A stretch of 64,000 bases of DNA, taken from Sporolactobacillus laevolacticus DSM 442. GTDB taxonomy: Bacteria > Bacillota > Bacilli > Bacillales > Sporolactobacillaceae. Where the stretch lies: assembly GCF_000497245.1 (NCBI RefSeq), contig NZ_AWTC01000004.1, positions 157,633 to 221,632 of the forward strand. The letters run 5' to 3'. The notes beneath the pieces are model-generated. The model was not told the origin of the DNA and did not search any database. It saw nothing but the letters and a program-made list of their open reading frames with translations. Below are positions 53,272 through 64,000 of the stretch, piece after piece; the stretch's first letter is position 1; each line of letters begins with the position of its first letter. Made by a program: the position numbers and the translations under genes.

Positions 53272-54060
53272 TCAAACACTTTTTCTTTTTCTGCCATTCG
53301 TAAACAAGATGATCAAGAAGCTCAGAATGGACAGAACGAACAGATAAGCAATGACAACCGCACTAGAAATGTGTCCGCTGACTTGCATTATTCGGAACAA
53401 ATAAATCTGGATCGTTTCATAATTACCGCCTACGACGAGATTCGTTAATGTAAATTCACCGAATAAGATAGAAAAGGATAAGAGTGACGAAACGAGTATT
53501 CCTTTTTTTATATTAGGAATAATGATACTGAAAAATATTTTTAATTGATTCGCTCCGAGAAGCTCGGCTGCTTCGATCATAGAGGACATATTTACACTAT
53601 GCAGGCTATTGCGAATGCCTTGATACATGTAGGGCATTACAACAATAAAGTACGCACCTCCAACAAGAATTAACTTTGGTACTTCGATACTCGAATAGGT
53701 TTGAAGCAAGCCGGAAGCGAGGATAATTCCCGGCATGGCATACGGCAGCAGCACAATACTCTGAAACAATTTTTCCAGACGTGGGAAATGCATACTGACA
53801 ATGACGACCGTAGGGAGCATAACCAGAATCACGACAGCCATCGACACAATGATGAGTACCAGTGTTCGAATCAAAGCATTAATAAATGTCGGGTCTTCAA
53901 ACATTTGTGCATACCATTTTAGTGTCAGTCCGGACGGGAGGATTGTCGTCGTCCATGACGTCGCCAGTGAATAAACGAGAGTCACAAATAAAGGAATAAT
54001 GAGATAGAGTGCTAATAAGGTAACGATTAAATAAAAGGGCCACTTTTTACCTTCGCTCAT
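53272..54060 (-). CDS. ABC transporter permease (second)
   Basis: 262 residues, six membrane segments. The coupling-helix loop EAAELLGANQLKIFFSIIIPNIKKGIL (about residues 165-190) is the EAA motif. The start overlaps the stop of the first permease by four bases (ATGA). It resembles the inner-membrane partner PotC/PhnV type in size. Confidence 0.9.
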   Translation of the reverse strand: MSEGKKWPFYLIVTLLALYLIIPLFVTLVYSLATSWTTTILPSGLTLKWYAQMFEDPTFINALIRTLVLIIVSMAVVILVMLPTVVIVSMHFPRLEKLFQSIVLLPYAMPGIILASGLLQTYSSIEVPKLILVGGAYFIVVMPYMYQGIRNSLHSVNMSSMIEAAELLGANQLKIFFSIIIPNIKKGILVSSLLSFSILFGEFTLTNLVVGGNYETIQIYLFRIMQVSGHISSAVVIAYLFVLSILSFLIILFTNGRKRKSV

Positions 54061-54890
54061 CCGATATCCCTCCGTAACTTTTTCAGAACAAGCTGATTAA
54101 TAAATAGCGCAATAATCATTGTCAAAGCAAGGACAAGGGCCATCGCACTTCCTAAATTTGGCATCGTATTGATATCTCCTGAAGTGAGCGCGCCAATCCG
54201 AGTCGACAATAGGTTGAAGCTGCCGCCGGTTAGTGCATATGCTGTTGCATAAGCGCCCATCGCGTTGGCAAACAGAATGGTCAGTGTGCCGAAGAAGCTA
54301 GGAATTAAATAAGGAATCACAATTTTCACCCAATACCTAAAGGAACTGGCACCAAGTAGATAGGCGGCTTCTCTCCATCGTTGATCAATCCCATTGAAGA
54401 CTGGGTAGAAGAGCATGATCGCAAGTGGAAGCTGAAAATAGACATACACTAGAACGAGACCTACCCATGTATACAAATTGAATTGTACGTGTACATATTT
54501 GAGCATGAGCGTGATAAACCCACTGTTTCCAAGCAGGATAATAAAGGCAAAGGCTAGCGGTACGCCGGCAAAATTAGATGTCGCATTCAAAATCAGCAAT
54601 AATCGGTTCTGAGTGTTCTGTGTCAGTTTTGTAATGGCATAAGTTACAAAAATTCCGAGTATCGAGCCGATGATGCTGGAAAAGAGCGATAAATTAATAC
54701 TGTTTGTGATCGCAACTGAATAGAAGCGCTGCGAGAAAATTAGGTGAAAGTTATAAAAAGAAAATGTACCGGTACTGTCTTGAAAAAAACTGCTGATCAC
54801 CATCATAATAAAGGGGATCAGCAGAACTGCTGCAAAGATGAGGATAAAAGGGACCAATACCATAAAGTTTTTTAGTCGCATGTATTTCAT
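54057..54890 (-). CDS. ABC transporter permease (first)
   Basis: 277 residues, six membrane segments beginning FMVLVPFILIFAAVLLIPFIMMVI. The EAA loop is REAAYLLGASSFRYWVKIVIPYLIPSFF (about residues 170-198). Its start follows directly on the phosphatase stop, with GGAGTG inside that gene's end, so translation is coupled. Confidence 0.9.
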   Translation of the reverse strand: MKYMRLKNFMVLVPFILIFAAVLLIPFIMMVISSFFQDSTGTFSFYNFHLIFSQRFYSVAITNSINLSLFSSIIGSILGIFVTYAITKLTQNTQNRLLLILNATSNFAGVPLAFAFIILLGNSGFITLMLKYVHVQFNLYTWVGLVLVYVYFQLPLAIMLFYPVFNGIDQRWREAAYLLGASSFRYWVKIVIPYLIPSFFGTLTILFANAMGAYATAYALTGGSFNLLSTRIGALTSGDINTMPNLGSAMALVLALTMIIALFINQLVLKKLRRDIG

Positions 54891-55724
54891 TCAATTCACT
54901 CCTGTTTTTAAACCCGGCAAGGCTAATTCCTGCATCTTCTCCGACTTTTCAATCTGCAATAAATGGCATGCGAGCGGTGCAATCATCAGTTGTGAAACAA
55001 AGCTGTCGCTATGTTCCTCCATTGCTACCTTATCTGAAAGTATGTAAAGAGGAACATGACGTTCCTCTTTTGATGTACCGCCGTGAAAACCTAGGGGATT
55101 CATGCCATGATCGGCGGTAACTATGACCTGATAGCCGGCTTCGATCCATTTTGGAATACAAAGAGAGAGAATGTTATCGATTTCAGCTACTTTATTGCAG
55201 TACTCAAACGAATCGGGTTTAAATTTATGACCGGCATCATCGACATTCATTGAATGGATATAGAGAAAATCCGGTGCGTACGTATTGAGCAAATAATTTG
55301 CGTCCATCAGCAAATGGGAATCCGGATAATCATCCTGCATATAAAAGATTCCATGCTGAATCGGATGATCCGGATGATGCTGAATCCGATCTTGAAAAAT
55401 TCTAAATGGTGCGTGCTCGTACAATTCACTGACCCAGTAATAAGAGGCGGTTGCATTAACCAAATGATTCTTTGAAGTCAGATCAAACAGACTTTCTTCT
55501 TTTGATGCTTGTACGGAAAGATTCGACACAATCTGGCTTTCTGCAGGGACAACGCCTGTCAACAGAAGCTCATACATAGGTCTGGAGAGACTCGGGAGTT
55601 GTGAGTGAACCTGATAGAAGGCTGCTTTTTTCTGCTCAACGAGATGTTCCATGAATCCCATATGCAAACGGGCTTTGTCTAGCCTTAAACCGTCAATCAT
55701 CATAAAAACCAGTTTATTTTGCAT
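54891..55724 (-). CDS. Alkaline-phosphatase-superfamily phosphoesterase (nucleotide pyrophosphatase-like)
   Basis: 277 residues without a signal peptide. Metal and nucleophile motifs: VFMMIDGLRLDKA (Asp, about residue 10), PSLSRPMY (Ser nucleophile candidate, about 45), SMNVDDAGHKF (Asp, His, about 170-175), TADHGMNPLGFHGG (Asp, His, His, about 213-225). The family includes phosphodiesterases, phosphonoacetate hydrolase and nucleotide pyrophosphatases. Here it is cytosolic and encoded inside the ABC operon, so it probably hydrolyses the imported compound. It overlaps the binding-protein gene by 11 bases. Confidence 0.82.
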   Translation of the reverse strand: MQNKLVFMMIDGLRLDKARLHMGFMEHLVEQKKAAFYQVHSQLPSLSRPMYELLLTGVVPAESQIVSNLSVQASKEESLFDLTSKNHLVNATASYYWVSELYEHAPFRIFQDRIQHHPDHPIQHGIFYMQDDYPDSHLLMDANYLLNTYAPDFLYIHSMNVDDAGHKFKPDSFEYCNKVAEIDNILSLCIPKWIEAGYQVIVTADHGMNPLGFHGGTSKEERHVPLYILSDKVAMEEHSDSFVSQLMIAPLACHLLQIEKSEKMQELALPGLKTGVN

Positions 55725-56802
55725 AAGCCATAACCTCTTGTTGCCACGATTGCGGGAGCGCTACTGCTGTTTTATCCCATTCTTTATAGTCGGTTATATG
55801 TGTTGTTGTTTTATATTCAGATGCAGGCAACAATTTACTTTGTACATCAGCGGGTAACTTCACATCAGAACGGATTGGACGAGCATAACCTTTTGCGAGA
55901 TTAATCTGGCCTTTATCCGAAAGAATATAGTCACGAGCGAGCATTGCTGAATAAGGATGCGGGGCATTCTTGTTAATTACGGATACGTAGCAGCTTGATG
56001 CGGATGCTTCTTTTGGAATGGTTACGTCGAAACGATTGCGGTCAACCTGATCACGGTAACCTAATGCATTGAAATCCCAAAGGACGGCTACATCGACTTC
56101 GCCTTTTTCAAGAGAAGAGATATCAATTTTATTCGTTGACAATCTGCCTTCTTGTGCAAGCTTCTTAAAGTAAGTAAGTCCTGGTTTGATGTTACTGACG
56201 CTACCACCGTTAGCTAATGATGCTGCGAGAACGCCGAATTGTGACTCAGTCGCTTTTGTCGGATCAAAAACATCGACTTTATATTTACCGCTTAACAGAT
56301 CAGCCCATGATTTCGGCGCGTTTTTAACATTTTTCTTATCCGTAAGGAAGGCAATCGTTCCGTAATATTCGCCAACATATTTTCCATCTTGGTCTTTAGC
56401 CCATGAAGGAATGCTGTTCCAATATTGCGTTTTATAAGGAAGAACAAGGTTTTCTTTCACTGCAACAGGTCCGAAGCTGACGCCGACGTCGCCAATATCC
56501 GCTGTTCCATGAGTGCCGTCCGATTTGAATTTAGCGATTTCTTCAGCGCTGGACATGTCCGTATCCGTATGGCTGATCCCGTAATTGGTCTTGATGTCCT
56601 TCCAAGTTCCCACCCAGTTAGCCCATGAATCCGGCATCCCGACGCTGACAACCTTGCCTTCTTTCTTTGCCTTTGCAACCAATTCTTTGTGACTCAAATT
56701 CTTGTCGATTGATTTGCTGGACGACTGACCGCATCCTGTTAGAGCAACAGCTAATGATAGGACTAACAATGTGATCATTCCCAAGAACTTAATGCGCTTC
56801 AT
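55714..56802 (-). CDS. Solute-binding lipoprotein of the ABC importer
   Basis: 362 residues from ATG 56802. Signal peptide with lipobox VALTGCGQSS (Cys about residue 22), then a class-2-type binding fold typical of the iron/polyamine/aminoethylphosphonate group (GMPDSWANW, GTADIGDVGVSFGP, AVLWDFNALGYRD). It captures the substrate outside the cell. The frame is open to 56901, but that part is intergenic in character; AGGAG lies before 56802. Confidence 0.88.
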   Translation of the reverse strand: MKRIKFLGMITLLVLSLAVALTGCGQSSSKSIDKNLSHKELVAKAKKEGKVVSVGMPDSWANWVGTWKDIKTNYGISHTDTDMSSAEEIAKFKSDGTHGTADIGDVGVSFGPVAVKENLVLPYKTQYWNSIPSWAKDQDGKYVGEYYGTIAFLTDKKNVKNAPKSWADLLSGKYKVDVFDPTKATESQFGVLAASLANGGSVSNIKPGLTYFKKLAQEGRLSTNKIDISSLEKGEVDVAVLWDFNALGYRDQVDRNRFDVTIPKEASASSCYVSVINKNAPHPYSAMLARDYILSDKGQINLAKGYARPIRSDVKLPADVQSKLLPASEYKTTTHITDYKEWDKTAVALPQSWQQEVMAYAK

Positions 56803-57335
56803 GCCAAACCATCTCCTAAATAATTTAATTTTCGAAAAATAGGAAAAGAAAGGGGAACCAATAGTATGTAAATCATTCTTTATGAGATTCATAAAGAACA
56901 ATTCTATTGTCTATCACAATTGTAAAGATTGATCGGTTGTTTTGTGTATTTATGATTAATTTTGTTGTATTATGTGTTTTCTTAACTAATATGTATAGAT
57001 TATTACCATTTTTTTAAATAGTCAATAATGTGTGTCAAAAAACCTGACATACAAGTCGAAAACAACAGGATACTGTAGTGATTGGTTGTTTATTGTCGGA
57101 GAAACATTGATATGAAAAGGTTTTTTTGAAGAATTATTTACAGCGGAAGGGATCAATCAATCATAGCCAGTATGTGGAAATGATGCTGAGGTTTCTATTT
57201 GTGTTGAAATGTGTTGTTTGTTCGCTTCTTATTCAAGAATAATATGTTGTATTTTGTGGGTGAGTGCTGATTTTGTCTGTATTCTTTACAGTGGTGGAGA
57301 GTCAATGGAAGTGTAACAAACCAGAGAAAATGGTT
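56803..57335. other. Intergenic region upstream of the ABC operon
   Basis: About 530 bases, AT-rich and rich in TGTT/GTTG words. No ORF. TGTTGTTTGTTCG at 57212-57224 resembles the run upstream of the deoR-type gene, and further TTGTTT/TTTTGTGT words occur at 56937-56985 and 57083-57093. These are candidate DeoR sites. Confidence 0.45.
57212..57224. promoter_or_regulatory. Candidate DeoR-family operator
   Basis: TGTTGTTTGTTCG shares the core TTGTTTGTT with 58187-58210. TG(T)TTGTT-rich direct repeats are typical of DeoR-family (LacR/FruR-like) sites in Gram-positives. Confidence 0.4.
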
Positions 57336-58127
57336 CTACTGTCTGCTCCCGTTTACGGATCCTGGTGAAAGCAGACTTATTCCATTTTCATCTAATGCTT
57401 GCTTCATACCTGTAGGGCAGTCATCATTGGTTACAAATGTTGATATATGCTTCAAATCACAAATATGCGCAAACGTTGTTAACCCAATTTTACTGTTATC
57501 CGCTAGAACGATGGACTCCTCGGAACGCTGCATGAGCAGCCGAGACATGCTTGCCTCATTCAAATCATAGTCTGTAATGCCGTCGGTTGTAGAGATTCCT
57601 CCGACTGAAATAAACGCTTTATTTGCTTTGAGCTGCGAGAGTTCCATCTCAGCAAGCGGGCCATGTGTGGATTGCTGTTTAACGTCTACTTTTCCACCAA
57701 TAAAGATCAGTTCACCATTAAAATGCTGCATCGCCTTCAACATGACCGGTGTCGAATGTGTGATCAGGGTAAGGTTCTTCCTATTGTCGATATAATCAAG
57801 AATGTTTAATGCGGTGGTTCCATTTCCGATCATAATCACATCTCCGTCCACAATCAGTGAAGCGGCAAGTTTGCCGATAATCTGCTTTTCTTTAGTATTC
57901 ATCGATATTTTTTGATCAAATGCAGGTTCTACGGAGAGGGTGCGGTTTACTACCGCTCCGCCATAGACTTTCTTTAATTGTCCTTCTTGTTCGAGTCTGT
58001 CCAAATCACGGCGAATAGTTTCAGAAGAAACGTTTAACATCTTTGCAATATTTGGGACGTAAATCTTTCCGTCTTTTTCGAGCAGCTTTAAAATGCTTTC
58101 TTTTCGGTTTTCATAAGCGAGCGACAT
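57336..58127 (-). CDS. DeoR-family transcriptional regulator
   Basis: 263 residues. N-terminal HTH (RKESILKLLEKDGKIYVPNIAKMLNVSSETIRRDLDRLEQEGQLKKVYGGAV, residues 8-59) and a C-terminal sugar-phosphate sensor domain (DGDVIMIGNGTTALNILDYI, ITHSTPVMLKAM, FISVGGISTTDGITDYDLNEASMSR, VLADNSKIGL). It is transcribed in the same direction as, and lies upstream of, the ABC operon. Inducers of this family are phosphorylated sugars or polyols, consistent with an imported phosphoester. Confidence 0.93.
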   Translation of the reverse strand: MSLAYENRKESILKLLEKDGKIYVPNIAKMLNVSSETIRRDLDRLEQEGQLKKVYGGAVVNRTLSVEPAFDQKISMNTKEKQIIGKLAASLIVDGDVIMIGNGTTALNILDYIDNRKNLTLITHSTPVMLKAMQHFNGELIFIGGKVDVKQQSTHGPLAEMELSQLKANKAFISVGGISTTDGITDYDLNEASMSRLLMQRSEESIVLADNSKIGLTTFAHICDLKHISTFVTNDDCPTGMKQALDENGISLLSPGSVNGSRQ

Positions 58128-58389
58128 GATAAATCACTTCCTTCACTTGATTTTTTAACAGGCCGTTGTTATATTCAGTCTATAAATTGTTGTTTGTTGT
58201 TGTTTTTGTGCATATTTCAATTGAATTTTATAGTTTGTGCCTACTGATTGTCAATTGTTATTCCAAATAACTTAGATCGTATTTACTATTCTTCATATCT
58301 TCACATCATTTTTAGAAAATTTTAATTGTTGTTATGGTTTCTTTGAATACTCTCCGATTTTTATCGGGCAAAATCGCTTTGGAAAGTCA
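58128..58389. other. Divergent intergenic region between deoR-type gene and riboswitch
   Basis: AT-rich. TTGTTGTTTGTTGTTG at 58187-58202 is a candidate autoregulatory DeoR site. A small hairpin CCGAT-TTTT-ATCGG is at 58349-58363. Confidence 0.45.
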
Positions 58390-58500
58390 AAATGTACGTG
58401 CTAATTAGATGGAAACAGGTGAAAGTCCTGTACGGTCCCGCCACTGTAAGGGAGAAATCCTAAGTCAGGTCTTTCTAATTAGTTAAATACTCACGAGGTA
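58390..58500 (+). promoter_or_regulatory. Cobalamin riboswitch
   Basis: The conserved core is clear: GGAAACAGGTGAAAGTCC (58411-58428), CGGTCCCGCCACTGTAA (58433-58449, the B12 box) and AAGTCAGGT (58462-58470), all closed by CTAATTAGA / TCTAATTAG (58401-58409 and 58473-58482). No T-run hairpin follows, and the ribosome site GGGGGAG of the next gene lies about 30 bases downstream, so control at translation start is likely. It should turn the three following genes off when adenosyl- or other cobalamin is plentiful. Confidence 0.93.
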
Positions 58501-58516
58501 TGGGGGAGAGTTACTA

Positions 58517-59911
58517 ATGAAAGTGAAATTTGCCGTGTTACTATTTTGCGTTGCCTTGTTGCTTCTTCCGGTGCAAGCTTTCGCATCGGAAGACGTAAGC
58601 AGTGATTTGGATACCCTTGCAAATCATATCAAATCTTCCGGACTCAATTCAGATTGGGAAGTTATTGCATTGTCAAAAGCAGGTAAATTGACGGATAGTG
58701 AAAGAGCTGCTTATCTAAATACGATTAATGATCGTTTGAATGCAAAGCAGCTATCAGGAACAGATCTTGACAAGACAGCAATGGTTGTTAAGGCTTTAGG
58801 TCAAGATCCTACGGATTATCAAAGTCATAATTTAATAAAAGCGATTTATTCGGATGCTTCGATTAAATCATTAATGGATTTTACATATGCACTTACTGCT
58901 CTAAGTACCGATGATTATACGATTCCTAGTGATGCTCTATGGACTCAGGATCAATTAATTGCTGCACTTGTTAAGCTACAGACAAGCTCAGGAGGATGGG
59001 GATGGGCAGGTGATCCAAATGGAGATCCTGATGTGGACACAACGGGAATGGTTTTAACAGCGCTGTCCCGTTATCAAGATAAAGCAAAGGATGCGATTGA
59101 CAAAGCCATTAATTACTTAAAGAATTCCGAACAAGAGGACGGCGGCTTTGTGAATTATTCACCGAATTCTAACTCAACCGCACAAGCCATCATTGCACTC
59201 TCATCATTAGGGATTGATCCTACTGAAGGAGATTTTAATAAAAATGGTCATAACCCTGTAACTAGCCTGGACCAATATAAGTCAAACGGTGGCTATAAAT
59301 GGGCGTCATTTAGTGAAAGCGATGATCCTTTTTCTAATGAGCAGGTGATTCAAGGTTTGGTCGCTTATTCTCAATTTAAAGAAGGTGAACAGTTATTCAA
59401 CTTTAGAGTGAAAGAACCGGTCAGTGGTTCGAGTGCCCCCAAGGATGGATCAAGCACCGTAAGTTCTACTGAAGCAGTACCAGAAAGCAATGGTGGAGTT
59501 GTAAGCGGAACAAATCAAGCGCCGGACCCGATTTTGCCTTCTAATACGTTGAGCACTGAGCCTAGTAGACTAGCATCGAATACCAAAACAACGGATACTG
59601 TAGTAACGAAACCGAAGCGTTCCAGCGATGAAAAGAATACAGCTCAAGGAACGGCAACGAAAGAAACAAACAGCACTATTCATCATGCATCTCCATCTAA
59701 AGATGGATTTAAAAGCTCGGCACATCGTCCGAAATCTCAGCATCAGGTGAAATCAATTCCAAAGCATTCACCAGAACGTGTAACAACTGTAACGAAGACA
59801 ACTCAGATTAATCCGCTGCATCTTTATTTAGGGTCCGCGCTCGTTCTGTTAGGTATAATCGGCCTTTATGTTCGGATTCGGTTAGGTGGTGTTCGCTATG
59901 AAGATCGCTAA
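58517..59911 (+). CDS. Surface-anchored alpha/alpha-barrel protein (prenyltransferase/squalene-oxidase repeat), cobalamin uptake
   Basis: 464 residues. Signal peptide (VKFAVLLFCVALLLLPVQAFA), then an alpha6/alpha6-barrel-type domain to about residue 300 with squalene-oxidase/prenyltransferase repeats (SSGGWGWAGDPNGDPDVDTTGMVLTALSRY; EDGGFVNYSPNSNSTAQAIIALSSLGIDP). A disordered Ser/Thr/Pro/Lys stalk (about 300-435) and a C-terminal membrane helix (LYLGSALVLLGIIGLYVRIRL) follow. It is the first gene after a cobalamin riboswitch. The barrel corresponds to the alpha domain of animal intrinsic factor and transcobalamin, so corrinoid capture is inferred. Confidence 0.85.
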   Translation: MKVKFAVLLFCVALLLLPVQAFASEDVSSDLDTLANHIKSSGLNSDWEVIALSKAGKLTDSERAAYLNTINDRLNAKQLSGTDLDKTAMVVKALGQDPTDYQSHNLIKAIYSDASIKSLMDFTYALTALSTDDYTIPSDALWTQDQLIAALVKLQTSSGGWGWAGDPNGDPDVDTTGMVLTALSRYQDKAKDAIDKAINYLKNSEQEDGGFVNYSPNSNSTAQAIIALSSLGIDPTEGDFNKNGHNPVTSLDQYKSNGGYKWASFSESDDPFSNEQVIQGLVAYSQFKEGEQLFNFRVKEPVSGSSAPKDGSSTVSSTEAVPESNGGVVSGTNQAPDPILPSNTLSTEPSRLASNTKTTDTVVTKPKRSSDEKNTAQGTATKETNSTIHHASPSKDGFKSSAHRPKSQHQVKSIPKHSPERVTTVTKTTQINPLHLYLGSALVLLGIIGLYVRIRLGGVRYEDR

Positions 59912-60602
59912 ATTGATTGTGCTGATTGTTTCCATCGGTTTTATTGTCTTTGGTCTTGCGTTCATTGCTGGCGGGGTTCAAGAAAAAACAGTGACCACCA
60001 CCCATTTTAAGAATCAGGACAATGTGGTCAAGGCAGATAAAACGTCTTCTGAATCAAACAAAATAAAATCGGATTCTAAAAGTAAAGTCTCTGAGAAAAA
60101 AGCTCAGAAAAATAGTGATGGCGGTTCTTCAACTGTAAGTACAAGTTCTGGCTCGGATTCCAGTTCGAATCCCAGCTCGAATTCAAACACTGCAGAAGCT
60201 GATGCAAATTCAACCTCGGAGCAACAAGCAAGCACGAAATCGTCTGATTCAAGTACGAATCAATCAAGTGTTTCAAATGCTGCAGACAGCAGCAATCAAG
60301 AACTCATCTCTGTAGAGATAAAGGGTTATGACAATAAATATTTCTCGGGAAATATGTCGTATAAAGACGGAATGACTGCGTTCCTTGCATTAAAAGCGCT
60401 CGCGGACAGCAAAAATATAGCTCTTGATTATTCGGGCTACGGGCCAACTGTCTATGTTAAGAGTATCGCTGGACAAAGCGCGGGAGATAAATCGGCTCAA
60501 AGTGGATGGACGTATACGGTCAATGGCAAAACACCCAATGTATCTGCGGGAATCTGTAAACTTCACAGTGGCGATACATTGGTATGGACCTATCAGGAAT
60601 AG
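59898..60602 (+). CDS. DUF4430 membrane-anchored protein, cobalamin uptake
   Basis: 234 residues. N-terminal membrane anchor (AKLIVLIVSIGFIVFGLAFIAGG), a very Ser/Asn/Lys-rich linker (about 30-135), then a DUF4430 beta domain (KYFSGNMSYKDGMTAFLALKALA ... SAQSGWTYTVNGKTPNVSAG ... KLHSGDTLVWTY, about 145-233). In intrinsic factor and transcobalamin this beta domain closes over the corrinoid. ATG 59898 overlaps the preceding gene by 14 bases, with GGTGGTG upstream. It and the barrel protein probably form a two-part receptor outside the cell. Confidence 0.85.
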   Translation: MKIAKLIVLIVSIGFIVFGLAFIAGGVQEKTVTTTHFKNQDNVVKADKTSSESNKIKSDSKSKVSEKKAQKNSDGGSSTVSTSSGSDSSSNPSSNSNTAEADANSTSEQQASTKSSDSSTNQSSVSNAADSSNQELISVEIKGYDNKYFSGNMSYKDGMTAFLALKALADSKNIALDYSGYGPTVYVKSIAGQSAGDKSAQSGWTYTVNGKTPNVSAGICKLHSGDTLVWTYQE

Positions 60603-60612
60603 GGTGAGCATC

Positions 60613-61116
60613 TTGTTAACTCGAAAAATAGCACTTATTTCATTATTAGCTGCTTTGAGTATTGTCGGCAGAATTTATATGTCCTCAATCCCCAATGTGC
60701 AACCGTCTACAGTGATCATTATTATTACTGGTTTGGTATTCGGAGCCAGGTTTGGCTTAACGTTGGCATTGCTAACAGCAATAGGCTCTGATTTTATGTT
60801 AGGGTTTGGTTTTTTTACAGTAATGCAGGTGATTGCTTGGGGTGTAATTGGGCTGCTTTCCGGATTTTTAGCCCGTTTTAGAACGAAAATTCCGATGCTG
60901 GTTATGGCTTGTTATGCTGGGGGATGCGGCTATTTATATGGATTTGTCGTCTCTTTGAATATGTTGATCGGAGGTGTGCCAAGTTTTATCACCTATTGGA
61001 TCATGGGGCTACCTTTTGATACTTATCATGCGATTGGAAATCTAGCCTTCTACATCATTTTGTCACCAATCTTAATCAGGTTGTTAGAGGCTGAAAAGAA
61101 AAAGTTACAGATATGA
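60613..61116 (+). CDS. ECF transporter S component, probably for cobalamin
   Basis: 167 residues, about six membrane segments. ALISLLAALSIVGRIYMSSIP at the N-terminus carries the small-residue helix-1 pattern by which S components dock on EcfT; TGLVFGARFGLTLALLTAIGSDFMLGFGFF follows. No ATPase or EcfT gene is adjacent, so it must share the cell's common ECF energising module (group II). The TTG start at 60613 is set by AGGGTGAG just upstream; an upstream open frame overlaps the preceding gene. Substrate assignment rests on the riboswitch and partners. Confidence 0.82.
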   Translation: MLTRKIALISLLAALSIVGRIYMSSIPNVQPSTVIIIITGLVFGARFGLTLALLTAIGSDFMLGFGFFTVMQVIAWGVIGLLSGFLARFRTKIPMLVMACYAGGCGYLYGFVVSLNMLIGGVPSFITYWIMGLPFDTYHAIGNLAFYIILSPILIRLLEAEKKKLQI

Positions 61117-61130
61117 AGGGGTGAATAAGG

Positions 61131-61244
61131 ATAATCAATACGCGTACAGGAGATAAGGGGCAAACAAATATTATTGGTGGCCGACTAGATAAGGATAATT
61201 CTAGAGTAAATAAAAGAAGCCATTCAGTTGAGTTGAACTCGTGA
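61131..61244 (+). pseudogene. Remnant of ATP:cob(I)alamin adenosyltransferase (PduO type)
   Basis: Starting 14 bases after the S-component stop, one frame reads INTRTGDKGQTNIIGGRLDK followed by DNSRVNKRSHSVELNS and a stop. This is the conserved N-terminus of PduO/CobA2-type adenosyltransferases (YTRTGDKGQTSLIGGRVDKD...VDELNS) with a few changes. Everything after about residue 37 is missing and the start codon seems lost (ATA follows AAGGGGTGAATAAGG). The stop codon lies inside the terminator. It belonged to the riboswitch operon. Confidence 0.75.
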
Positions 61245-61284: not shown

Positions 61285-62901
61285 TCAGTGCTGCACAGTC
61301 TCTCCTGTAACAACAGTTGCATCATCCTTCTTGCGAAGGCGTTGACTGATTTCAGCGTAAGAACCTAAATGCGGTCCTTCGAAACGATTCTTCGCATAAG
61401 CAAAGAAGTAGATTGTCAGGAGAACGAGTACAGAAATGAAGATTTTACCGGTGGCGTAATGCAGGGTGATGCTGCTTGTGATTGCCACATCACTTGGCGA
61501 AATGGTCATTAATACGATCAGGAAAATAATCCATGCACATGCAATGACACTGATCGGATTGCTCCATCCCTTCAGACTCCATGGACCATCGTCTTTTTCT
61601 GTCCAAGCACCTTTAAATTTGGCTCTTAATTTCAGGAATATCGGAATAAAGTACGAACCATACAGACCGATAACGCTCAATGACGTAATGACTGCATAGA
61701 CGTTGTTGAAGATGGCGGATAGGAAAGCAATCAGAGCAACGAGCCAGATCGCGTAATTTGGTGTGTAGAATTTCTTGGAAACACGAGCCCAAATATGGGA
61801 TAGCGGCAGCCCTTTGTCACGACTGAAGGCAAACACCATACGCGAGGACGAAGTGATCGAGGAAAGACCACAGAACCACATCGCAATGGTGATCATCCAC
61901 AGCATCGCCTGGCCGAACCAGCCGCCGACGGCTTGCTGAATGGCAACGATAAAGGCGTTATTTCCAGCCTGGGCAACAGCTGCCGGATCTTTGATCGACA
62001 TCGTAACAATTGCAAGAAGGATGAAACCGAAGATGCCGGAAATGGCGACAGAAAGATAAACGCCCCATGGCGCTCTGACCTTCGGATCGATTGTTTCTTC
62101 ACTGGTATGTGCGGAAGCGTCATATCCGGTCAATGTCCATTGCGCCTGCAGTAGGCCAACGAGAAAGGCAAACCAGTAAGGCATGCTGCCGCTTGTCATT
62201 GTTGAGAAATTTGCATTGAAGAGATAGCCGACGTCGTGGTGCGGACCAAAAGCAGTGAGGACACCAATAATGATAAAGACACCGATGATATGATAGATCG
62301 CTGAAAATGAGTTCAGTTTGGAAACGACATTGATACCGATATGGTTCAGCGTCGCGTGCATCAATAGAATGACGGCGTAGGTAATCAGTATTTGCACATG
62401 TGTCGGATTGCCGAAGATCAAGGCAGAGGCGAAACCGGCACAGCCGAAGTCGATTCCGGCAACGATTGTGACTTGGCCGATGATATTGAGCCAACCGGTG
62501 AACCAGCCCCATCTCGGTCCCCCCAGAATCGATGCCCAGTGATAGATTGCTCCGGATGTTGGAATAGATGACGTGAGTTCAGCCATTGCCGCAGCAATGA
62601 ATAAAACAAACAGTGTAACGAGCGGCCAGCCGACACCCATGATTGCCGGTCCGCCCTGATTAAATCCGTAGCCGTATAGCGTTACTGCGCCGGTTAGAAT
62701 AGAAATGATTGAAAATGAGACGGCGAAGTTTGAAAAGCCGCCCATGTCTCGCAACAATTCCTGTTTATAGCCGAACGACTTAAGATCCTCAGATGAAACA
62801 TTTTGAGCTCTGGCTCCCTGAACGGAACGGTTTGCCTTGAAAATAATGGCAAACATGACGACAAGTAGGATCAAGTTCACCAGAATACCGAATAGCAGCA
62901 T
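61285..62901 (-). CDS. APC-superfamily amino acid/choline/ethanolamine-type permease
   Basis: 538 residues, about 12 membrane segments plus an extra N-terminal one. FGYKQELLRDMGGFSNFAVSFSIISILTGAVTLYGYGFNQGGP is the opening of the GABA/choline/ACT branch of APC carriers, and TGYDASAHTSEETIDPKVRAPWGVY is its loop 6-7 signature. It is divergent from eutA, so ethanolamine or another amine is a plausible substrate. ATG 62901 with AAAGGAG upstream; TTG 62907 is too close to that site. Confidence 0.83.
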   Translation of the reverse strand: MLLFGILVNLILLVVMFAIIFKANRSVQGARAQNVSSEDLKSFGYKQELLRDMGGFSNFAVSFSIISILTGAVTLYGYGFNQGGPAIMGVGWPLVTLFVLFIAAAMAELTSSIPTSGAIYHWASILGGPRWGWFTGWLNIIGQVTIVAGIDFGCAGFASALIFGNPTHVQILITYAVILLMHATLNHIGINVVSKLNSFSAIYHIIGVFIIIGVLTAFGPHHDVGYLFNANFSTMTSGSMPYWFAFLVGLLQAQWTLTGYDASAHTSEETIDPKVRAPWGVYLSVAISGIFGFILLAIVTMSIKDPAAVAQAGNNAFIVAIQQAVGGWFGQAMLWMITIAMWFCGLSSITSSSRMVFAFSRDKGLPLSHIWARVSKKFYTPNYAIWLVALIAFLSAIFNNVYAVITSLSVIGLYGSYFIPIFLKLRAKFKGAWTEKDDGPWSLKGWSNPISVIACAWIIFLIVLMTISPSDVAITSSITLHYATGKIFISVLVLLTIYFFAYAKNRFEGPHLGSYAEISQRLRKKDDATVVTGETVQH

Positions 62902-63272
62902 ACACAAGGAACTCCTTTGTTTTGGAATAATTGTTAATTACGGCTGCACTACCTATATCGTTATGATTTATAAAATAATACATAAAATTCCGAATTTAAT
63001 AGACGGATTTTCGGAGCAACGGTTATTCTTTTTAGATGAAGCATTTCAATGACTGAGGAGCTAAAACATACACGTTCACTCGTTAACTATCATCTTTTTG
63101 TGTTACATCACCTTACATTCATAGGAAAAAATAAGTTTTTTTTGTTCTTTCGACGATTAAATGAGTTAAAATGAACACTAAAAGTAACGTTTTCTAACAT
63201 GCATTAAATGATAGCATATCTTGGTATTTCTGCAACACATTAATTTGGCAAATGGAGAGGAATGAATCGAAG
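62902..63272. other. Divergent intergenic region permease/eutA
   Basis: About 370 bases, AT-rich. A weak promoter for eutA may be near 63150-63175 (TTGTTC ... TTAAAATG). No ORF and no clear EutV-type antiterminator hairpin pair was recognised. GGAGAGG at 63254-63260 is the nearest ribosome site for eutA. Confidence 0.4.
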
Positions 63273-64000
63273 TTGGAAAGTGCCGTTTTAAGTGTGGGTA
63301 TAGACATTGGAACGTCGACAACACAATTGGTTCTGACCAGGTTGACGATTCAAAACAAGGCTTCCTCGTTTTCAGTTCCGAGCATTGTCATCTCAAAGAA
63401 AGAAATCATCTATCAAAGTGGTATTATTTTTACCCCTTTATTGGATGGGTACACCATTGATTATTCGCGCATTGCGCAATTTGTCTCTCAGGAATACCTG
63501 AAAGCGGGAATTGATAGGCAAACGATACAGATGGGTGCGATTATCATAACAGGTGAAACGGCCCGTAAGGAAAATGCGGAGAGAGTCATCCAGACCCTAA
63601 GCCATGATGCCGGGGATTTTGTCGTTGCGACAGCAGGGCCTGACTTGGAAGGTATTCTGGCAGCAAAGGGTGCGGGAGCTGGTAAGTATTCTAAGGAAAA
63701 AAAAGTCCCGGTTATTAACCTTGATATTGGCGGGGGGACCACGAATCTGGCTGCGCTGGATGGTGATCAGGTTCTGGATACCGCCTGCTTCGATGTAGGC
63801 GGTCGGTTAATCAGAATTAATCCGACCAGCTTGGAAGTGAGCTATATTGCCCCGAAAATCAAGCATTTAATTCACCAGTTGAACCTCGGGCTTCTTGAGG
63901 GCAGCGTGCTGCAATCGGCAGAACAGCTGAATCCGATTATTGATGTGTTGGTACACGTGCTGGAGAACAGTGTCGGAATTGGTGAAAGGAATCCTTTTTT
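63273..64000 (+). CDS. eutA: Ethanolamine ammonia-lyase reactivating factor EutA, cut off by the window end
   Basis: At least 242 residues, open to the last base. Actin/Hsp70-like ATPase fold: VGIDIGTSTTQLVLTRL (phosphate loop 1, about residues 8-24), GAIIITGETARKENA (the EutA signature, about 92-106), VATAGPDLEGILAAKGAGAG and NLDIGGGTTNLAALDG (phosphate loop 2, about 151-166). It exchanges damaged cobalamin in EutBC. TTG 63273 is the likely start, about 12 bases after GGAGAGG. eutBC would be expected downstream. It depends on the cofactor imported by the neighbouring operon. Confidence 0.92.
   Translation, partial: MESAVLSVGIDIGTSTTQLVLTRLTIQNKASSFSVPSIVISKKEIIYQSGIIFTPLLDGYTIDYSRIAQFVSQEYLKAGIDRQTIQMGAIIITGETARKENAERVIQTLSHDAGDFVVATAGPDLEGILAAKGAGAGKYSKEKKVPVINLDIGGGTTNLAALDGDQVLDTACFDVGGRLIRINPTSLEVSYIAPKIKHLIHQLNLGLLEGSVLQSAEQLNPIIDVLVHVLENSVGIGERNPF

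Follow-up and report, generated by a model that had tools for sequence, protein, structure and literature searches.

How might a Gram-positive cell catch vitamin B12 at its surface and pass it on to a transporter? This question is raised by a three-gene locus, here denoted A-B-S, in a 64,000-nucleotide stretch of the Sporolactobacillus laevolacticus DSM 442 genome (contig NZ_AWTC01000004.1, positions 157,633 to 221,632; hereafter the window). Behind an adenosylcobalamin (AdoCbl) riboswitch, the locus encodes an exported alpha/alpha toroid protein (A), a membrane-anchored protein with a DUF4430 domain (B) and an S component of an energy-coupling factor (ECF) transporter (S). Judged from sequence, it is almost certainly a B12 (corrinoid) uptake locus. 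By analogy with the animal carriers intrinsic factor and transcobalamin, we propose that A and B are likely the two halves of a corrinoid clamp. The full reading, in which a riboswitch-controlled clamp of A and B feeds S, appears to us reasonably probable.

Organization of the locus

The Rfam model RF01482 detected an AdoCbl riboswitch aptamer at 58384-58512, on the forward strand like the three genes, with 75.3 bits against a gathering threshold of 50 (E 4.4e-12). This is the sole match of the model in the genome, which comprises 3.59 Mb in 32 contigs. Four nucleotides separate the end of the aptamer from the ATG of gene A (58517-59911, 464 amino acids). A ribosome-binding-like stretch of gene A, GGGGGAG (58502-58508), lies inside the 3' end of the aptamer, suggesting that the riboswitch likely acts at the level of translation. 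The thermodynamic fold of the leader (58384-58560) was unremarkable, with a z of -0.78. The start of gene B (59898-60602) overlaps the end of gene A, ATG at 59898 being a likelier start than GTG at 59886. Gene S (60613-61116) begins a few bases after gene B, with TTG at 60613 or GTG at 60604; a mechanically called open reading frame (ORF) starting at 60424 extends into B and was rejected as too long. The initial annotation had described a cobalamin riboswitch followed by A, B and S, all overlapping or tightly spaced, and this layout was confirmed by Rfam, Pfam, ORF and hydropathy analyses.

The closest named relatives are Sporolactobacillus species, and in four of them the S component is 82-89% identical to that of the window. 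Comparison with S. kofuensis (locus L075) gave differences by codon position of 107/93/198 for A (448 codons), 59/41/98 for B (233 codons) and 22/9/73 for S (170 codons), indicating that all three are coding genes and that A and B evolve fast.

S and B resemble known cobalamin-handling proteins

In Pfam, S matched PF12822 (E 3.9e-11). A PDB search with the single S sequence returned one match at E<=10, chain A of 6FNP (CbrT; E 1.7e-27), and a profile of 27 S sequences gave 6FNP at 6.3e-42 and the next best entry at 0.0049. 6FNP is ECF-CbrT of Lactobacillus delbrueckii, a transporter of cobalamin and cobinamide (PMC5997447; here and below, articles are cited from parts of their text). By sequence, S is a member of the CbrT family, a cobalamin-type S component. 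Neither a T gene nor an ATPase gene lies beside it and the ECF module genes are found elsewhere, the arrangement of group II transporters. The genome encodes eight T proteins of the CbiQ family, all away from the locus, one of them in a run that we read as ecfA1-ecfA2-ecfT-truA, with the ATPases and truA judged by eye.

Protein B starts with a hydrophobic segment (residues 1-29), continues with a Ser-rich stalk (32 Ser in 105 residues) and ends in the DUF4430 domain (60297-60599), which matched PF14478 with an E of 7.4e-18; no second PF14478 match exists in the genome. A profile of 37 B sequences retrieved from the PDB haptocorrin (1.7e-7), the DUF4430-like entry 3u7z (1.2e-5), transcobalamin-2 (best entry, 1.8e-4) and intrinsic factor (2.7e-4), and the matches to the three animal carriers all fall in their C-terminal beta domain. 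AlphaFold2 modelled the domain with a predicted local distance difference test (pLDDT) score of 96.2. In a Foldseek search with this model, all 19 hits at E<=1e-3 were transcobalamin, intrinsic factor, haptocorrin or 3u7z, with SUMO next at 1e-2.

A structure-based alignment of 45 sequences (the window and 44 of 79 others, thinned by hand) showed that Asn76 and Asp93 of the domain are invariant in 45/45 and that Trp71 is present in 43/45; the Trp is also found in the aligned haptocorrin and transcobalamin-2 chains. Residues 47-93 are more conserved than residues 1-46 (1.88 vs 1.37 bits, A2; 1.94 vs 1.45, A6), and we map this conserved region, by sequence, to what would be the cobalamin-anchoring beta3'-beta7' part (PMC11107200). 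The resemblance to the beta domain of intrinsic factor and transcobalamin claimed for DUF4430 at the outset is upheld: by profile and predicted fold, the DUF4430 domain of B is a transcobalamin-type beta domain.

Protein A and its association with B

Protein A has a hydrophobic N-terminus (residues 1-27), a toroid domain (58589-59413), a stalk rich in Ser, Thr, Pro and Lys, and a C-terminal hydrophobic anchor (residues 431-449 by hydropathy; 59807-59863). Its Pfam matches, to SQHop_cyclase_C (E 1.8e-5) and Prenyltrans (E 1.2e-3), are weak and below the Pfam cut-off. The AlphaFold2 model of 58583-59425 (pLDDT 95.2) consists of 12 helices forming an alpha/alpha six-hairpin toroid; the alpha domain of transcobalamin is likewise a cylinder of 12 helices (PMC11107200). 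At E<=1e-3 and counting weak matches, a toroid profile matched 88 of 299 genomes across the phylum, from 66 of the 215 genera sampled.

Without selecting for A or B, we collected loci with 8 closer S sequences and kept the best 80 (all named) of 219 relatives, so that the counts lean towards genomes near that of the window. A DUF4430 gene adjoins S in 79 of these 80 loci, the exception being L150 (Geomicrobium). Cobalamin-riboswitch models matched 74/80 on the same strand, within 700 nucleotides upstream of the first A or B gene (overlap of up to 150 nucleotides with a called gene start was allowed), and no other match was found in the 80 loci at E<=0.01. These nhmmer models, built from Rfam-found examples, replaced a regular expression that missed most known cases. 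The frequencies of B and of the riboswitch indicate that the gene arrangement is more than chance. Gene A precedes B in 14 of the 80 loci, and B is adjacent in 14/14 of these. They belong to Sporolactobacillus (4), Heyndrickxia/Weizmannia (4), Neobacillus (2) and, with one locus each, an uncultured Firmicute, [Clostridium] spiroforme, Longibaculum and Stoquefichus. In many of the two-gene loci (L061, L063, L068, L069, L072, L073 and others), the riboswitch follows a conserved run of genes, presumably resB-resC-resD-resE to judge by their lengths.

Searches starting from the other two domains gave a similar picture. PF14478 occurs in 54 of 150 genomes and 32 of 83 genera of the window's order, and 37 stretches out of 36 of these 54 genomes were examined: a cobalamin-class riboswitch is found in 33, an S component in 35 and a toroid in 22. 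All 22 toroid-bearing stretches also contain B as a gene of its own, a count biased by their having been picked by DUF4430. In 19 of them, toroid and DUF4430 domains are fused in one gene, mostly with DUF4430 first. From the 88 genomes matched by the toroid profile, 20 stretches out of 19 genomes were taken, an open frame of about 360-590 amino acids being required; a B gene is found in 19/20, an S component in 15/20 and a riboswitch match anywhere in the stretch in 15/20. The sole stretch that lacks B is a 3.8-kb contig.

Some relatives carry larger arrangements. L044, one of these larger loci, encodes by Pfam its own CbiQ-type T protein and a protein with two ATP-binding cassette (ABC) stretches, and an annotated record of Latilactobacillus curvatus lists an LPXTG toroid, DUF4430, EcfT, ABC and S in a row. 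A toroid match was present in 12 plasmid records, and four of these were opened. On one Levilactobacillus brevis plasmid the toroid is annotated next to DUF4430 and near cobS; on another it lies beside ECF genes, and DUF4430 is unlisted up to the end of the record and in its first 6 kb, genes crossing the start being unlisted. On these two plasmids (L216 and L217), the toroid relatives are annotated as 'fucose-binding lectin II', probably a misannotation. L040-L043 and L057 encode, under a cobalamin riboswitch, giant surface proteins in which a single chain holds as many as six DUF4430 domains together with two toroids; judged from sequence, they are possibly multi-site B12 binders. In L049, three tandem cobalamin riboswitches (1108-2140) precede one toroid/DUF4430 operon.

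The way B is anchored differs with the presence of A. In all 14 loci with A, B carries a long stalk behind an N-terminal membrane segment, whereas without A it is mostly a short lipoprotein (lipobox in 53/65, membrane segment in 8, neither in 4). The DUF4430 domain starts at a median residue of 140 with A (n=15) versus 49 without it (n=65). Furthermore, the stalk lengths of A and B correlate across the 15 A-B-S loci including the window (Pearson 0.83; for the window itself, the domain limits in A and B were set by hand). The correlation persists once group means are removed (n=15, r 0.89 with a permutation p of 0.00055). The genomes concerned are few and related, and wall thickness may underlie the lengths of both stalks.

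A proposed mechanism

Gene order, riboswitch, protein families, predicted folds, gene associations and B12 context are the observations from which the following scheme is built. When AdoCbl is scarce, the riboswitch would permit translation of the coupled A, B and S genes. The toroid of A and the DUF4430 domain of B would be held on flexible stalks at the outer face of the membrane, where the DUF4430 domain would bind the corrinoid first. The toroid would then shut over the other face of the corrinoid, as in intrinsic factor and transcobalamin, here on separate chains. The load would be handed to S, of the CbrT type, and imported with an ECF module encoded elsewhere, and the resulting AdoCbl would serve ethanolamine ammonia-lyase and close the riboswitch. 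We infer the order of binding, the closure on one ligand, the hand-over, the translational control and the choice of ECF module.

Work on the animal protein agrees with such a scheme. In transcobalamin, the beta domain binds cobalamin first and the alpha domain then closes (PMC11107200). When the alpha and beta domains of transcobalamin are made separately, they co-elute only with cyanocobalamin, which the beta domain also binds alone (PMC5599065, Bloch et al.), indicating that a split version is physically sound.

Several results weigh against the clamp and have to be set beside these. Foldseek placed squalene-hopene cyclase and drimenyl diphosphate synthase at the head of the list for the A toroid, with prenyltransferase beta subunits within the top 20 and transcobalamin at rank 17 (E 1.3e-3, TMq 0.57). 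The toroid profile matched 26 PDB sequences at E<=1, none of them a B12 carrier, and PF01122 failed to match the window's A even at E<=1, its alpha-domain signature being found in 2/28 toroid relatives. The barrel had been called intrinsic-factor-like in the initial annotation, a description that is too specific, as squalene-hopene cyclases and prenyltransferase beta subunits match it as well or better. By sequence and model, the kinship of A to the intrinsic-factor alpha domain is at the level of the fold only. A is a generic toroid with circumstantial links to B12; we do not claim that it belongs to the animal family, and that it acts like the alpha half is proposed by analogy. As for B, its single sequence retrieved no transcobalamin from the PDB (Gingipain R2 came first at 0.001 and 3u7z scored 0.73), so that the link of B to transcobalamin rests on profile or fold.

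Also on this side of the balance, the toroid is absent from the fetched flanks of 66/80 S loci, the rest of those genomes not having been searched. This suggests that DUF4430 and CbrT form the core, with the toroid an added half that is dispensable for the basic task. Of the two-half system first described, B beside S (79/80) stands, and the toroid was seen at 14/80 S loci. In addition, purified L. delbrueckii ECF-CbrT took up B12 in proteoliposomes without extra proteins (PMC5997447), indicating that capture proteins are not obligatory. Finally, the match of stalk lengths did not recur in two further sets, with r 0.00 in the first (n=19) and 0.29 in the second (n=22, p 0.19). The A proteins of the first set have no clear C-terminal membrane segment (best hydropathy <=1.65) and several of them, by their look, presumably end in S-layer-type or other wall domains, so that the tether measure hardly applies to them. 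The second set includes 12 fused A proteins with a C-terminal segment, whose stalks are mostly short (22-64 residues vs 102-159 in B); for these r was 0.56 (p 0.058), and 0.44 (p 0.17) without one outlier. A tether-length match as a general rule was dropped, being unsupported outside the 15 A-B-S loci.

Alternative explanations

The best-surviving alternative, which we nonetheless regard as unlikely, is that B alone is the corrinoid partner of CbrT and that A performs another surface task, such as spacing, wall contact or binding of another ligand. The generic fold of A fits this explanation, as do the 65 of 79 DUF4430-S loci that have no A in the fetched flanks and two lactobacillar plasmids that carry nrdJ, DUF4430, S and adenosyltransferase genes without A beside them. 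It accounts poorly for the company that A keeps: A is found with B in 14/14 and 19/20 stretches, toroid and DUF4430 are fused in 19/22, the type of anchor of B switches with the presence of A, and the tether lengths co-vary in 15 loci.

More doubtful still is a relay, in which A and B are independent corrinoid binders that pass the ligand from the wall side to S and never close together on one molecule. Some relatives, in which one chain bears two toroids along with several DUF4430 domains and B exists separately as well, are in keeping with it, and so are the several relatives whose A has no C-terminal membrane segment or is annotated LPXTG, B keeping its N-terminal segment. Yet the animal homologue of the B domain sandwiches its ligand together with a toroid (PMC5599065, PMC11107200).

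We consider it very improbable that A is a terpene cyclase or prenyltransferase-like enzyme present in the operon by chance, although sequence and fold searches both match it best to squalene-hopene cyclase and drimenyl diphosphate synthase. The catalytic motif of squalene-hopene cyclases is DxDD, and its last Asp is missing in 28/28 toroids, which therefore do not carry that motif. A also carries an export signal and a stalk, and it shares its B12 riboswitch with B. A terpene cyclase identity of A was rejected on the loss of DxDD, export and context.

That S carries another vitamin, for example riboflavin or folate, is barely credible and was rejected. In its favour, S scores just above the cut-off with the riboflavin-type PF07155 (27.5 vs 26.7 bits, E 3.7e-6); against it, CbrT is the sole PDB match of the S sequence, a cobalamin riboswitch stands at 74/80 loci and eut and adenosyltransferase genes are its neighbours. 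As far as sequence can tell, the different vitamin against which the initial annotation had staked its proposal finds no place here. The clamp of A and B feeding S remains the reading that we favour.

Genome context and neighbouring genes

On the 3' side of the locus lie eutA, eutB, eutC and a gene for a PduO-type adenosyltransferase, a run identified by profile matches that starts with eutA (63252-63998, forward strand) and reaches past the window. This sequence context suggests that the ethanolamine ammonia-lyase of the host depends on corrinoid taken up from outside. CobS had no match in the genome, while 10/14 control genomes gave one. A BtuC-type FecCD permease gave one match of 20.8 bits, below the cut-off of 26.5, compared with matches in 13/14 controls, so that no BtuCDF importer was recognised, and the B12-binding domain PF02310 gave one match below the cut-off, compared with matches in 12/14 controls. 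A search for diol dehydratase returned zero in this genome and zero in the control genomes too. The host seems to use B12 and to be unable to make it, CobS being the one biosynthetic marker covered (other cob genes and B12 enzymes were not searched). The A-B-S locus is the only B12 importer recognised in the genome, in which BtuM was not searched.

Directly after S lies an N-terminal remnant of a PduO-type cobalamin adenosyltransferase gene (61131-61241, forward strand; TIGR00636 positions 2-36 of 171, E 1.9e-5), and a full-length copy follows eutC (L005 5662-6282). In L. intestinalis the S and adenosyltransferase genes adjoin. The opposite strand carries an amino-acid-permease-like gene (61285-62907) between S and eutA; its best NCBIfam match, TIGR00907, is below the cut-off, and the ethanolamine permease TIGR00908 matches more weakly. 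Upstream of the locus, on the reverse strand (53272-56901 and 57336-58127), Pfam identified an SBP_bac_6 binding protein and a DeoR regulator, accompanied by two permease-like ORFs and one phosphatase-like ORF judged from their sequence; we take this group to resemble a phosphonate-type uptake unit.

Relation to known systems

Transcobalamin, intrinsic factor and haptocorrin combine a toroid with a DUF4430-type beta domain, as here, and their beta domain is related to that of B by profile and fold. Unlike them, the window encodes two separate membrane-tethered bacterial proteins, and its toroid is related by fold only, with PF01122 unmatched. The animal carriers are one chain with the toroid first, whereas the window has two ORFs and its fused relatives mostly have DUF4430 first. 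In Gram-negatives, BtuG/BtuB and BtuF capture corrinoids at the surface or in the periplasm ahead of transport, with folds not known to be related to the toroid/DUF4430 pair. The type of transporter differs as well, no FecCD permease above the cut-off being present here.

ECF-CbrT of L. delbrueckii (6FNP) has an S component of the same family as the window. Its cluster is ordered nrdJ-cbrS-cbrT-pduO (PMC5997447) and resembles the nrdJ-DUF4430-S-adenosyltransferase cluster of L. intestinalis; cbrS is therefore probably the DUF4430 gene, judging from cluster order. In contrast to the window, the S gene has no toroid neighbour in the two lactobacillar clusters that were read throughout. In L. rhamnosus, an 'additional lipoprotein component of putative cobalamin ECF transporter' is annotated, and a DUF4430 gene lies beside rtpR, which encodes a B12-dependent reductase (PMC9963975). 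We infer that the two entries are one family; in the parts of the article cited, they come with no toroid partner and no mechanism, in contrast to the window (PMC9963975). Teleosts have short transcobalamin-like sequences with DUF4430 alone, which share this domain with B but are animal proteins, with no toroid partner reported in the text consulted (PMC4350170). The position of DUF4430 next to cobalamin ECF genes is already known from annotation. Among the matches listed from open-licence PMC titles and abstract beginnings, there was no bacterial B12 system of toroid plus DUF4430, and the matches listed from the PMC literature searched held no characterised Gram-positive B12 surface capture protein.

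Implications

The scavenging of B12 by Gram-positive cells could find its explanation in a toroid family that accompanies a transcobalamin-type beta domain, an S component and a riboswitch in most of the stretches examined. If true, it would provide a bacterial model for the assembly of intrinsic factor, in which the separate halves make corrinoid-induced assembly easily testable, and would raise the question of where the animal carriers came from. A tentative answer, which we think more likely wrong than right, is that the bacterial two-chain clamp is ancestral, with the corrinoid gluing the tethered proteins together and the closed clamp docking on CbrT, and that the animal carriers are its single-chain descendants or relatives. 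Together, our results suggest that a split form of the animal carrier design serves some Gram-positive cells in capturing B12.

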